A stretch of 64,000 nt of DNA from Candidatus Roizmanbacteria bacterium RIFCSPLOWO2_01_FULL_40_13 (GTDB taxonomy: Bacteria; Patescibacteriota; Microgenomatia; UBA1406; GWC2-37-13): contig MGAN01000019.1 in the NCBI GenBank assembly GCA_001789745.1, positions 15,393 to 79,392 on the forward strand, in the 5' to 3' direction. The notes under the pieces are model-generated. The model was not told the origin of the DNA. It was given only the letters and a program-made list of their open reading frames with translations, and did not search any database. Numbering within the stretch: position 1 is the stretch's first letter; the number at the start of each line of letters is the position of its first letter. This document shows, piece by piece, positions 7,035-45,003 of this stretch. The position numbers and the translations under genes were made by a program.

Positions 7035-9062
7035 TTAATGAATTACAATATTTCCTCCAGTTAATTCAGTAGTAGGATCAGAGTTGTCATTTGAACCTAA
7101 ATTATTATCATAAACAACTTGGTCATTATTGTTTTCATCCCAGATTTTTATTCTGAATTTATCAACTCCTCCGCCACCATTTATTGATCCATCGATTGCA
7201 GATAGTTGAAACCCGTAACTTCCGCTTCCGTTAACAGTTCCATCGCCTTTAAACTTAGCTTGAGCGCCGGCAACGACCAACCATTGATAGACAGTACTGG
7301 TAAATGTAAAATCAGCCGCTTGGAACTTAAACTGGGTATTCCCCGTTGGCGTACTTGCACCCGGCTGGTATTTGGATACAAATCCAAATTTTGCGATTCC
7401 GGTTAATGAAGAATTCGGAACATAAGAACCTACCGGAGAATCGATTACTCCAGCTCCTGTTACAAATCCGCCTGAAGCGGAATTGTCATAAACTACAATA
7501 AATTGATAAATAGATTCTCCAATACCCTCGTCATCATCGGCGATATTGACTTTAACTTCATAAACTCCTGGTATTGTATATGTATGACTTCCTGTTACCG
7601 TATCGTTTTGTTGATCCACCGTGCCGGCAGAGGTTAGGTTATCGCCCCATTCCCAAACACCGGTATGTGTATCTGGCACTCCAGGATCAGTGAAAGAAAC
7701 ATTTGTGTTGATTTGTGTATTAACTAATATTGGATCGGTTGGTGCAGTAATTGGACCAACAGTTGGTGTGACGTTTGTGATATTAACAATTGTCTGATCT
7801 ATAGCAGTCAAGTTTCCGTCGTCAGTCACCTGAACTGTGATTATCTTTGAATCAGGTCCGTCTAAATTAGTTGCAGAAAAAGTTACAGTTTGTCCTAGGA
7901 TTTCAAAGGTTCCGTTATTATCTAAATCCCAAGCATAGGTTAAAGGACCGTTTTCCGGATCGGAACCAGTTGCGGCAACTTGAACCGTTTCACCTTCATT
8001 TACTTCATACGGACCGTCTGCGTCAACAGACGGAGTAATGTTCGGAAATACCACGGTTGCCTCTTCAGTTTTACCAGTGAAAACACCACCAGCTGTTGTG
8101 TCTCCTCCAATTGCATAAATTTTACCATTCCCTCCTGTTGTAACGCCAAGAACCATTCTTGATGTTGGCATGTTTATTTTGGCTTCCCAGCTGTTTGATA
8201 GCGTATCAAATTCTTCTACGACATTTAGTGGTGATTGGGAATATGGAGTAACATAACCATATCCTCCAATTGCATAGATTTTATTTTTTAAAGCGGCAAC
8301 TCCAAGTCCGTAGCGTGCAGTTGGCATATTTGCTTTAGAGGACCAAGTATCTGTTATTGGATCGTATTCTTCAATATTATTATTGAGTTGACCACTCCAA
8401 CCTCCCACCACATATATCTTACCATTACTTCCTAATACTGCTCCCATTTGAAACCGTGCAGTTGGCATATTTGCTTTAGAGGACCAAGTATCTGTTATTG
8501 GATCGTATTCTTCAACTATATTTAAAAGTTGACCATTATATCCCCCAATTGCGTAAATTTTACCATTGTTACCTGACACTGCGACTAATCCTTCTCGCGC
8601 TGTAGGCATGCTGGCTCGACTTGACCATGTGTTGGTCAGAGCGTTGTACTCTAAAACTGAATTTAGTCTGTTAGATCCATAAACTCCTCCAAAAACATAA
8701 ATTTTTCCATTTAATTCTGCTGCTCCAAAAGCAAGTCGCAGTGATGGCATACTTGCTTTTGGTAACCAAGAATTACTGTTTGGATCATATTCCTCATTAG
8801 TACTGACTATTGAGTTATCGGGAAACCTCTGTCCTCCAATAACATAAATTTTTCCATTACTTGCCGAAACGGCCGGCATCCACCCTCTTGGTGTAGGCAT
8901 TTGCGATCGTGTTGTCCACGATACAGTAGTTGATGCAAAAATATAATTGAAAAAAGGTAATACTAAAAGAGATGAAAATAAAATTATAAAAACTATAAAG
9001 AAATTGTAATTTAATGAAAAGAACGAAGTTCTTATATTTTTCATATTATTTATTTTACACAA
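7035..9062 (-). CDS. Kelch-repeat protein with PKD-type domains
   Basis: Kelch units (GKIYVIGGQ...NSWLPKASMPSLR) repeated, followed by DADGPYEVNEGETVQVAATGSDPENGPLTYAWDLDNNG. Confidence 0.9.
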   Translation of the reverse strand: MCKINNMKNIRTSFFSLNYNFFIVFIILFSSLLVLPFFNYIFASTTVSWTTRSQMPTPRGWMPAVSASNGKIYVIGGQRFPDNSIVSTNEEYDPNSNSWLPKASMPSLRLAFGAAELNGKIYVFGGVYGSNRLNSVLEYNALTNTWSSRASMPTAREGLVAVSGNNGKIYAIGGYNGQLLNIVEEYDPITDTWSSKANMPTARFQMGAVLGSNGKIYVVGGWSGQLNNNIEEYDPITDTWSSKANMPTARYGLGVAALKNKIYAIGGYGYVTPYSQSPLNVVEEFDTLSNSWEAKINMPTSRMVLGVTTGGNGKIYAIGGDTTAGGVFTGKTEEATVVFPNITPSVDADGPYEVNEGETVQVAATGSDPENGPLTYAWDLDNNGTFEILGQTVTFSATNLDGPDSKIITVQVTDDGNLTAIDQTIVNITNVTPTVGPITAPTDPILVNTQINTNVSFTDPGVPDTHTGVWEWGDNLTSAGTVDQQNDTVTGSHTYTIPGVYEVKVNIADDDEGIGESIYQFIVVYDNSASGGFVTGAGVIDSPVGSYVPNSSLTGIAKFGFVSKYQPGASTPTGNTQFKFQAADFTFTSTVYQWLVVAGAQAKFKGDGTVNGSGSYGFQLSAIDGSINGGGGVDKFRIKIWDENNNDQVVYDNNLGSNDNSDPTTELTGGNIVIH

Positions 9063-18287: not shown

Positions 18288-18489
18288 AATTCCGCTTTGC
18301 GGAAAATTCGAATCTCTAATTTCTAAATTCTAAACGATTATCAGAATTCAAATGACGAACAATCAAAAAGTTTAAAAAATTTGAAAATTAAATATTTGAA
18401 TTTGTTTAGGATTTAGAGTTTAGGATTTAATATTTAGTTTTTAAGGTACTCTTTTGTCGCGTCTAACGCGACTGCAGGAATATTTAAAA

Positions 18490-22152: not shown

Positions 22153-23514
22153 ATGCAGATAATAGCCGATCTTCAGCTTCACTCCAAGCACTCCCGCGCC
22201 GTCTCACACAAGATGGACCTTGACGAGATCGCCCGCTGGTCCTCTAAAAAAGGGATAAATCTTGTTGCCACCGGCGACTGGACACATCCCTTGTGGTTTA
22301 GGGAAATAAAAGCAAAATTAAAAGAAGTATCTCCCGGTATATTTTCGCTGAATGAGGATAAGACCGATTTACCGGTCTCAAGCGATGTTCGCTTTTTGCT
22401 CTCCACCGAGATCTCCAGCATCTACAGCCAGGGTGGAAAAGTTCGCCGTGTCCATAATTTGATCTTTTCGCCGTCAATCGCCACCTGTGAAAAAATCATC
22501 AAAGAAATGCGGGGCCGGGGCGCCAATCTGATGTCAGACGGCAGGCCGATTGTAGGTATCCCGTCCAAGGATCTTTTGGAGATGGTTTTGACCATAGATA
22601 AAAATGTTTTGTTCGTGCCGGCACACGTCTGGACTCCTTGGTTCTCGTTGTACGGCTCCAAATCAGGATTCGATTCAATTGAGGAATGTTTTGGAAATCT
22701 CTCAAATAATATCTATGCGATTGAGACTGGTTTAAGTTCAGACCCGATCATGAACTGGCAGATCAAGGAACTTGAGACCAGATCGATCATCTCCTCCTCC
22801 GACGCCCACTCCGGACCAAAACTGGGAAGAGAAGCAACGGTTTTCACAACAGTCAACCATCAACAGTCAACAATCAACAATTTTTCCTACCAAGATATAA
22901 CAGACGCAATTAAACAAATATCAAATTCAAAATTAAAGATCGGTTATACTATCGAGTTCTTCCCGGAAGAGGGAAAATACCACTGGTCTGGCCATCGCGC
23001 CTGCAATATCAGATACAGCCCCAGACAAGTTAAGGAAAAAGGGGGAATCTGCCCGGTCTGCCGTCAGCCGCTGACCATCGGAGTTGAGAATCGCGTCATG
23101 GATTTGTCATATAAAACGCTGGGTCAAGACGATCTTTTATATCTTAAAAACGGCCTGGGAGTGACTTTCGTCTACGATAAAAACAAAAAGAGAGTCCCAT
23201 TTGTTTCCTTGATTCCGCTACAGGAAGTCTTGGTTGAAATAAACAATGGCTCCCCAATCAGAGCCTTTAGACAGTATGAGCAGCTTACCTCCGCTTTTGC
23301 TACCGAATTTGAAATTCTTTTGAAAAAAACTTATGCAGAGATTGAGACTGCGGCCGGCTCGCAATTAAAAAAAGCGGTTCAGATTATCCGCGACCGCAGG
23401 GTGCATGTTGACCCGGGCTACGACGGAGTTTTTGGAGTCGTAAAATTAATTGGTAAAGATGAAAAAACAGATAGTGAAGAAAAAAAATCTGAAAATCAAC
23501 CGAGTTTATTCTAA
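22153..23514 (+). CDS. Endonuclease Q (EndoQ)-like PHP-domain protein
   Basis: IIADLQLHSKHSRAVSHKMDLDEIARWSSKKGINLVATGDWTHPLW; SSSDAHSGPKLGREATVF; zinc-binding RACNIRYSPRQVKEKGGICPVCRQPL. Confidence 0.85.
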   Translation: MQIIADLQLHSKHSRAVSHKMDLDEIARWSSKKGINLVATGDWTHPLWFREIKAKLKEVSPGIFSLNEDKTDLPVSSDVRFLLSTEISSIYSQGGKVRRVHNLIFSPSIATCEKIIKEMRGRGANLMSDGRPIVGIPSKDLLEMVLTIDKNVLFVPAHVWTPWFSLYGSKSGFDSIEECFGNLSNNIYAIETGLSSDPIMNWQIKELETRSIISSSDAHSGPKLGREATVFTTVNHQQSTINNFSYQDITDAIKQISNSKLKIGYTIEFFPEEGKYHWSGHRACNIRYSPRQVKEKGGICPVCRQPLTIGVENRVMDLSYKTLGQDDLLYLKNGLGVTFVYDKNKKRVPFVSLIPLQEVLVEINNGSPIRAFRQYEQLTSAFATEFEILLKKTYAEIETAAGSQLKKAVQIIRDRRVHVDPGYDGVFGVVKLIGKDEKTDSEEKKSENQPSLF

Positions 23515-34493: not shown

Positions 34494-35939
34494 TTATTTT
34501 ATCAAACTGCTTACTTCTCTCCCTAATTTTACCGCGTAGTTTGTCCCGCGGTCGTAGGGGTAGGTCATGTCGAGATTGGCGATATAAAAATTTTTGACAG
34601 GAGTTTTAAAAGCCGGTTTGTTCTTGATAAATTCGCGGTCGAAGATCGGCTGGGCGAAAGGACCGACGAATTTATAAAAACGCGAAACATGAAACTTGAA
34701 ACTTGAAACTCTATGAAGATGGGGTAAATAATAATTCAGAACTTCTTTGGCTGACATTTTGATTAACGGGTCTTTGCGCTCGATATACCAACCAACATAT
34801 GCGATATGATTGCCGCCGTAATTTTTTTTATCGACGAAGTTGGTGTGTTGAGCCACGATCATAATCGGAACCTTAGGCGTACAGACATTTAACCAATAAG
34901 TCTTGTCCAAAATTTTTTCCTTTGTCTCCAGAATCATCACCACCGCATGCAAGTATTTTAAATTACTGAATTTTTGCAGATACAAAGACGGGAAAATATT
35001 CTGCGTAATCTTAGACATGATTACTGTAGGTAAGGTACTAATAATTACGTCAAATTTTTTTTTAACTATTTTGTCACGCTGAACTTGATTCAGCATCTGT
35101 TTTTTAGAATCAGATCCTGAAATAAATTCAGGATGACGTATAACAAAAAATTCTTCATTTCTCTTCTCTATCGTTTTTACTTCATAATCTGTTAAAACCT
35201 TAACCCGTAATTGATCTAGCTCGTTTTTAACATGATTAATAAAAGTCTGAAATCCTCCCTTGATGTAGCCTAGTTTTTTGGCTCTTTTGGTCACTCTCGC
35301 CCAGATGAAAGTAGCCAGAATTTTTTCCGCATATTTACCGAATTTTTTCCGAAAAAGCTGCTGCCACAATACTTCCCAGACATGTTCTCCTTGTGTTTTT
35401 CTCAAAAAATCCGCGGCAGTTTGTTTTTCATAGATATTTAAAAAGGGTGAAAACTTGAGAAATGCCAATACAATCCCGGCTCTGATCTTTTCGGGCAACG
35501 ACAGAAGAGGGAAGTTCAATAAATCCTGCGGTGAATCTAAGGGAAATATGCGGTAAATGTTCTTCATGGTTTTGTCATCCTGAACTTGGTTCAGGATCTG
35601 TTTTATCATTCCGACTTGTCCAGTATCCGATTCTGTAGTCGCTCCGTTACCTAGTATGGCGTTTCTGTCAATTTCATACAATGATGAAGTCTGTGTTTCC
35701 TTAAAAAAAATGTCTTTAAATCCTAGATCTCTGGCGAAATTCAAGATATCATCTTCGCTGTCCAAAAGATGATGGTAGGCCCGCTCCAGATACCAATCCC
35801 AGTTCGGCTGCCGGAATCCTACCGCCAAGCCTCCTAATACTTTTTCCTTTTCGTAAAGGCTTACTTCGTGTCCTTTTTTCGCCAGGTAATACGCGGCAGT
35901 CATTCCGGTAAATCCGCCGCCCAAAACAGCTATGCGCAT
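34494..35939 (-). CDS. FAD-dependent oxidoreductase (amine oxidase/protoporphyrinogen-oxidase-like) with in-frame repeat insertions
   Basis: MRIAVLGGGFTGMTAAYYLAKKGHEVSLYEKE Rossmann motif; inserted peptides ILNQVQDDK, RHPEFISGSDSKKQMLNQVQRDK, SFKFHVSRF. Confidence 0.85.
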   Translation of the reverse strand: MRIAVLGGGFTGMTAAYYLAKKGHEVSLYEKEKVLGGLAVGFRQPNWDWYLERAYHHLLDSEDDILNFARDLGFKDIFFKETQTSSLYEIDRNAILGNGATTESDTGQVGMIKQILNQVQDDKTMKNIYRIFPLDSPQDLLNFPLLSLPEKIRAGIVLAFLKFSPFLNIYEKQTAADFLRKTQGEHVWEVLWQQLFRKKFGKYAEKILATFIWARVTKRAKKLGYIKGGFQTFINHVKNELDQLRVKVLTDYEVKTIEKRNEEFFVIRHPEFISGSDSKKQMLNQVQRDKIVKKKFDVIISTLPTVIMSKITQNIFPSLYLQKFSNLKYLHAVVMILETKEKILDKTYWLNVCTPKVPIMIVAQHTNFVDKKNYGGNHIAYVGWYIERKDPLIKMSAKEVLNYYLPHLHRVSSFKFHVSRFYKFVGPFAQPIFDREFIKNKPAFKTPVKNFYIANLDMTYPYDRGTNYAVKLGREVSSLIK

Positions 35940-35948
35940 AAGGTAATA

Positions 35949-36326
35949 TTATAAAAGAAGTTTAACTTTATATTTTTTAAACAGCTTATCTAAAGTTATA
36001 AGGGTTAATTTTTCCGATTGAGCTTGAGCAATAAGAAGCCTGTCAAACGGGTCTCGGTGGTGAAGAGGTAGTTTACCCAGCATTAAAATATGATTAAAGC
36101 TGATATTTAAAATTTCAAAATCATATTTTCCGAAAGCTTCCTCAAGGGGCATTGTAAGTTTAAGCTTTCCTGCTCTTTGTTTAATACTTATTTCCCATGC
36201 AGTCACAGCACTTATAAGAATGTCATTTTCGGGGCTTTCAATAATTTTGTATAAAGATTGTTTTAGTTTTTTATTATCTTCCAACCACCACAAAAATATA
36301 TGAGTATCAAGTAGGTATTTCATCAT
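35949..36326 (-). CDS. PIN-domain toxin (VapC)
   Basis: YLLDTHIFLWWLEDNKKL; HHRDPFDRLLIAQAQSEKLTLITLD. Confidence 0.95.
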   Translation of the reverse strand: MMKYLLDTHIFLWWLEDNKKLKQSLYKIIESPENDILISAVTAWEISIKQRAGKLKLTMPLEEAFGKYDFEILNISFNHILMLGKLPLHHRDPFDRLLIAQAQSEKLTLITLDKLFKKYKVKLLL

Positions 36327-44484: not shown

Positions 44485-45003
44485 ATGTCTATATATACCC
44501 GTACCGGCGACAAAGGTACAACTTCACTCTTTGGCGGCAAGCGCATCTCCAAGTCTGATCTTCAGGTTGAGGCTTACGGATCAGTCGATGAATTAACTAG
44601 CTTTTTAGGTCTGGCCATAACCAAACTTCCCAAATCTAATCGGCCAATTTTTTTTAAGATGCAAAAAGATCTATATAGAATCATGGCTAATCTTTCCGGG
44701 GCAAAACAGGATTTAAAATTTCTGGATAAAAAAGTTAAGGAATTTGAAAAACAGATAAACCTGATGGATAAAAAATTACCGAAACTAACCAAATTTATTC
44801 TCCCCGGAGGCAGCGAACTTTCTTCCTGGTTCCACATCTTACGCGTAGTCTGCCGTCGCGCTGAAAGAAATGTGATTAGATATTATGTTCCATTGGAAAT
44901 TGGAAATTGGAAATTGGAAATTGTCCGCTATCTCAACCGACTCTCCGATCTTTTTTTCACCCTGGCACGCATTTACAATCAGGGTAAAGATCAAACGGCT
45001 TAA
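44485..45003 (+). CDS. Cob(I)alamin adenosyltransferase (PduO type)
   Basis: MSIYTRTGDKGTTSLFGGKRISKSDLQVEAYGSVDELTSFLG; LPGGSELSSWFHILRVVCRRAER. Confidence 0.95.
   Translation: MSIYTRTGDKGTTSLFGGKRISKSDLQVEAYGSVDELTSFLGLAITKLPKSNRPIFFKMQKDLYRIMANLSGAKQDLKFLDKKVKEFEKQINLMDKKLPKLTKFILPGGSELSSWFHILRVVCRRAERNVIRYYVPLEIGNWKLEIVRYLNRLSDLFFTLARIYNQGKDQTA

Follow-up and report, generated by a model that had tools for sequence, protein, structure and literature searches.

How can a gene remain readable when palindromic repeats lie inside it, and where do such elements come from? Until now, most in-frame palindromic elements on record were those of Rickettsia and certain other Proteobacteria. The question is raised here by a gene on contig 19 of a 1.04-Mb Candidatus Roizmanbacteria genome (G000), within a window, the whole stretch of DNA that was analysed, of 64,000 nucleotides. 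A sequence-only reading had described it as an FAD oxidoreductase gene whose reading frame stays open across three repeat-type insertions, two of them palindromic and related to each other. The frame is open over its whole length, and the two palindromic sequences (inserts A and B) both match one REP pattern. The third sequence is a real 7-bp tandem array but not an insertion. The features are collected in Table 1.

Table 1. Coordinates in the window of the host gene, its inserts and their repeat units.
Feature	Position	Strand	Description
Host gene	34494..35939	-	481 aa, open ORF; FAD-dependent oxidoreductase of predicted amine-oxidase fold, PRK07233-like
Insert A	35562..35666	-	Residues ~92-126, predicted turn of beta-hairpin 83-89/129-133
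REP unit in insert A	35575..35599	+	0 mismatches to family pattern
Probable second REP arm of insert A, decayed	35605..35618	+	Tentative, approximate boundaries
Insert B	35070..35141	-	Residues ~267-290, predicted turn of beta-hairpin 263-268/292-296
First REP of insert-B REPIN	35074..35098	+	TCACGCTGAACTTGATTCAGCATCT
Second REP of insert-B REPIN	35112..35136	-	TCATCCTGAATTTATTTCAGGATCT
7-bp tandem array in variable loop C	34684..34710	-	Peptide SSFKFHVSRF; TRF 3.9 copies, score 47

In a profile search, the host protein scores 316.9 bits against PRK07233/NF005560 (cut-off 252), and it matches the Pfam family Amino_oxidase (PF01593) at 1.7e-26. Used as a query, it finds matches in 35 of 37 genomes, its own included, and its nearest orthologs are in Candidatus Roizmanbacteria (Microgenomates, Patescibacteria). 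An AlphaFold2 model built from 43 sequences has a mean pLDDT of 90 and a pTM of 0.88, with most residues above 90. Since the top Foldseek match of the model is a protoporphyrinogen oxidase (2ivd, TM 0.72), the label of FAD oxidoreductase is correct at the level of the fold. All 56 columns that are invariant among the other orthologs are preserved, and the gene is most likely functional. Pairwise dN/dS is 0.06-0.11, similar to ortholog pairs without these inserts, but because dS is near saturation the ratio taken alone is poor evidence of constraint. The terminal branch of the oxidoreductase is 0.22 compared to about 0.14 in congeners, which hints at mild relaxation. A gene for a PIN-domain (VapC-like) protein lies directly upstream, at 35949-36326 on the reverse strand.

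Alignments to related genomes are interrupted at residues ~90-127 and ~266-293, and, as the sequence-only reading had expected of insertions, the two inserts are missing from most orthologs; insert A is either missing or replaced by something else. The REP of insert A (TCATCCTGAACTTGGTTCAGGATCT) lies inside 35571-35603 and reads ILNQVQDD on the gene strand. Near it is what is probably a decayed second arm, tentatively placed (ACAAGTCGGAATGA on the gene strand), whose score in local alignment to a REP variant was equalled by 3 of 1000 shuffles. Insert B is a head-to-head pair of REPs, or REPIN, with a 63-nt core at 35074-35136 inside 35069-35137. In the AlphaFold2 model both inserts fall in turns of beta-hairpins, and confidence there is low (pLDDT below 50 at residues 95-124 of insert A and about 67-69 in insert B). 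Because they sit in hairpin turns of low model confidence, both are expected to lie at the protein surface.

The third sequence differs from these two. Loop C, in which it lies, has about the same length in homologs, so an insertion is rejected, and an 18-mer of the array is not dispersed in the genome (25 matches at up to 3 mismatches, compared to 20 for the reversed pattern). Some relatives do have palindromes in loop C, for example CCCCGCCTAAGGCGGG in G005 and a long hairpin in L195, and the loop may be a third tolerant site, though it holds no insertion in this genome. Arrays with a 7-bp period number 16 in the window, where 20 dinucleotide shuffles gave a mean of 1.85 (range 0-3); examples are at 44892-44923, 22847-22881, 18304-18334, and 34684-34710. 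The window also holds a 141-bp tandem repeat at 8314-8582 (1.9 copies, 82% matches).

The palindromes were predicted to recur in the genome, and they do. The REP pattern matches 67 sites at up to 3 mismatches, with none for the reversed-pattern control; three matches are in the window, where shuffles gave none. The 67 units form about 50 elements, mostly outside ORFs, and the family is present in 21 of 36 relatives. The consensus is GTC-ATCCTGAA-CTTGT-TTCAGGAT-CTG, with an 8-bp stem and a 5-nt loop. Among 100 distinct units taken from stretches of three genomes, the first two stem pairs are A-T in 95 and T-A in 97; pair 5-21 is C-G in 51, G-C in 36, and T-A in 6, and pair 7-19 is T-A in 77 and C-G in 16. 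The stems stay paired through compensatory changes. A G precedes the TC in 157 of 160 bare units, and the base before that is T in 128, A in 18, and C in 9. The tail of the unit is mostly CTG, with G at +25 in 117 of the 160. In Candidatus Roizmanbacteria genomes the units are usually paired head to head, and the REPIN cores are about 55-66 nt long.

Tag-outward pairs are common among the bare elements and the rule among those embedded in MITEs. About 26 elements, roughly half of the genome's total, are of the latter kind: terminal inverted repeats (TAG..GCAAAACAAAATG) bound a larger element that has a REPIN at its centre. The in-gene copies are bare REPs that lack such ends. The layout of these MITEs is TAG..GCAAAACAAAATG..CATTTCGTTTTGCG..CTA (e.g., L126, L113, and L132), and in some copies about 110-215 bp separate the two REPs. 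Two other ideas about the repeat were considered and rejected. The sole Rfam match, RefA5, has an E-value of 0.29, far below gathering, and is taken as chance rather than as membership of a known RNA family. Spread by phages is rejected since insert B had no match in a phage collection and the exact consensus had none in viral contigs.

The unit design places the family close to a known superfamily. The CGTC-tagged REPs (Di Nocera et al. 2013, PMC3733652), which include dRS3 of Neisseria, end in CGTC, in many repeats TGTC or CCTC, and have an 8-9 bp stem starting with the pairs A-T and T-A, a loop of 4-5 nt, and a short unpaired tail that is mostly CCA. They form mainly head-to-head dimers and are mainly intergenic, with some in frame within genes and no adjoining RAYT (PMC3733652). 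The family described here shares the tag through its TGTC variant, the stem and loop (8 bp with A-T and T-A first; 5 nt), the head-to-head dimers without a flanking RAYT, and the mainly intergenic location with some in-frame genic copies. It differs in having mostly TGTC as its tag, CTG as its tail, and CCTGAA as its stem core. It also differs in its host, a Patescibacterium; the five phyla listed for CGTC-tagged REPs do not include Patescibacteria (PMC3733652). Because the CCA tail, which the source gives for most repeats, is replaced, the family is better called CGTC-like than a certain member of the superfamily.

The sequence-only reading had compared the inserts to the palindromic elements (RPEs) of Rickettsia, and the comparison is borne out by the unit design, since RPE-4 and RPE-6 have been assigned to the CGTC superfamily (PMC3733652). 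The likeness to these two rests on that assignment, and the likeness to RPE-1 is by analogy only. As in Rickettsia, palindromes are inserted in frame into unrelated genes, are absent in relatives, and add 20-30 residues. The differences are the phylum and the occupation of a single loop by different families among related species, of which no description was found in the literature read. REPINs, paired inverted REPs that act as short mobile units (Bertels and Rainey 2011, PMC3116915), show the same pairing; in contrast to REPIN/RAYT systems, none of the RAYTs examined here lies beside the same REP, and those of this genome and its relatives have other hairpins or none. What is found in Patescibacteria is an RPE-like REP family of CGTC type, and no fitting paper on REPs in Patescibacteria or CPR was found in the literature searched, which was largely outside subscription journals.

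Why copies inside genes stay in frame had been left between two explanations, selection for tolerated insertions and an element that avoids stops in one frame. The second is rejected. On average, a bare intergenic dimer leaves 0.81 of the six frames open, compared to 1.47 for dinucleotide shuffles, so the element does not favour coding. A count of genic and intergenic copies in three congeners, with at least 30 residues required on each side, placed 27 bare elements out of 120 inside ORFs, and 1 of the 27 embedded in MITEs; coding density is about 86% in the window. Some copies are thus in genes but most are outside them. ORFs elsewhere that cross an element were called on length, and because the coding score backs both flanks in only about half of them, the inside-ORF count should be taken as an upper limit. 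The elements are read in several frames: cores of 63 nt mostly read HPEFISGS..LNQVQHD, those of 64 nt VILNLFQDL..LKQVQHD, and those of 65 nt HAELVSAS..SRNKFGMT. Since intergenic copies are less open than shuffles and only about one-fifth of bare copies are in ORFs, the in-frame copies are best explained as those spared by selection, with the element itself not coding-prone, so it is tolerance, in the form of survivorship, that fits better. Repeat peptides can also cause false similarity; in the search with the host protein, matches in other ORFs of G002 cover the repeat-derived segment only.

The same loops are filled again and again in related proteins. Strong hairpins number 13 in 49 orthologs of the oxidoreductase, its own gene included; six of them lie in loop A and another three in loop B. 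Loops A and B, inserts counted, make up 6.6% of residues yet hold 9 of the 13, though these nine are not all independent because they come from six proteins. In loop A, the CCTGAA REPs of G000, G001, and G002 are replaced by CACCCTCAGGGTG and CACACCCTGAGGGTGTG in G003, a repeat coding ILRRASLAQDD in G005, TGAGACGGGT..ACCCGTCTCA in G006, and CCTGCCGGCAGG in G014. Loop B has CCTGAA REPINs in G000 and G006 and repeats coding HFERSEKS in L142 and L145. Orthologs with no hairpin in the loop are common, and some have a short plain loop.

Three other proteins show similar patterns. Glutamate dehydrogenase (GDH) carries CCTGAA REPINs in G000 and G002, in different frames, and VIPSEARNP..SASWRIPRNDGG in G003, all three immediately upstream of the strand TIAVQGFGNVG. 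In a PMT-like protein, one loop holds REPINs in two genomes (G000 and G004) and repeat-type peptides of other kinds in two more (G002 and G005), with nothing in G001. In an 830-aa membrane protein, REPs occupy a common site in G002 and G004 and a different one in G000. The peptides HFERSEKS, VIPSEARNP, and LPAGRQ are presumably repeat-derived; hairpins back only some of them. A PMT-like protein of G000 (C4:45595-47265, 557 aa) contains two peptides of repeat type, VILSAAKNLS..RDRSLTM and HPEHVSRSGFRNKSGMT.

One could consider that each loop received a single ancient insertion that was inherited and later decayed, was lost, or was replaced by other repeats. The closely similar loop-A REPIN common to G001 and G002 fits this, and shared occupancy may in part be inheritance, both there and for the PMT-like insert of G000 and G004. 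The 60 of 63 identical positions between the B inserts of G000 and G006 also seem to fit, but an intergenic copy in G002 is equally close to the G000 insert, so the similarity is no proof of common descent. G006 belongs to another genus and has an almost identical peptide in the same loop. Peptides shared with distant homologs had been named as evidence against insertion; they are found in part, but the loop is empty in five congeners, and the idea is not refuted. Insert B is missing from L141 as well, and several exact losses would be needed on the tree. The flanks of the insert, too, are unlike each other in G000 and G006, and because of these flanks and its absence in the five congeners two separate gains are favoured. 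About five different palindromes in loop A, and the different frames in GDH, also speak against a single ancient insertion per loop, which is therefore unlikely.

The inserted peptides could instead be adaptive, with the new loops useful for surface, interaction, or regulation. In two species the peptide of insert B is indeed nearly identical and sits in the same loop, and two retain the REPIN in the PMT-like protein. However, the same loop in sister species holds unrelated palindromes and peptides, or is short and plain, insert A has no confident structure in the model, and the G000 branch is longer than those of its sisters, not shorter. This makes adaptation improbable. Equally poor are the chances that the copies act as RNA or DNA hairpins in the gene, in attenuation or mRNA stability, with coding incidental. 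The stems do covary, and intergenic REPs have been suggested to function at the RNA level (PMC3733652), but covariation was measured mostly on intergenic copies and would be expected just as much if mobile units are recognised by their hairpins, the one Rfam match is sub-threshold, and orthologs free of hairpins are common. That repeats were misjoined into genes during assembly is hardly credible even though the genomes are MAGs, given that independent MAGs from different projects have different sequences in the same loops, open and in frame.

The reading that survives, and which is very probably correct, is that of a CGTC/TGTC-type REP/REPIN family with in-frame copies surviving in tolerant loops of this enzyme and three other proteins. 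Mobility of the REPs is inferred from copy number and presence or absence because no transposase is tied to them. RAYT-type genes were found in the own genome and 29 relatives in a search with PF01797, but no REP within 5 mismatches lies beside a RAYT at any of the 32 loci examined, where other hairpins or none are present, and a cognate RAYT beside the REP is rejected for own and related genomes. In the own genome, RAYT-type genes for Y1 transposases lie at L119:1732-2534 and on L120; the one on L119 stands between inverted ACTCTAACCTCGTAGGTTAGAGT hairpins that bear no relation to the present REP. The units may transpose as single-strand hairpins, and the likeliest agent, at about even odds, is a transposase supplied in trans, perhaps of the RAYT/IS200 type, such as a RAYT with other cognates. 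No target-site duplication was demonstrated, the empty sites being too diverged. Insertions would land widely, and selection would purge most of those in genes. The survivors would be in-frame copies without stops, placed in tolerant loops, and would be translated as flexible extra loops, with no new function required for their retention.

A further possibility, which we favour by a small margin, is that tolerant loops, a few per protein, are landing pads for unrelated palindromic families, filled independently and repeatedly in Roizmanbacteria and perhaps in Patescibacteria generally. No description of such recurrent filling by different palindromes was found in the accessible literature. There is also a warning for annotation, as peptides such as HPEFISGS and QMLNQVQHD are repeat-derived and give false similarity among unrelated proteins. 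A Patescibacterium with a reduced genome carries in-frame palindromes, and about 50 orthologs show where insertions survive. The question of how mobile DNA becomes protein is made testable, with predictable loops, empty and filled versions, and measurable effects. If the landing pads are real, mobile DNA would give rise to new protein segments at positions that can be predicted.
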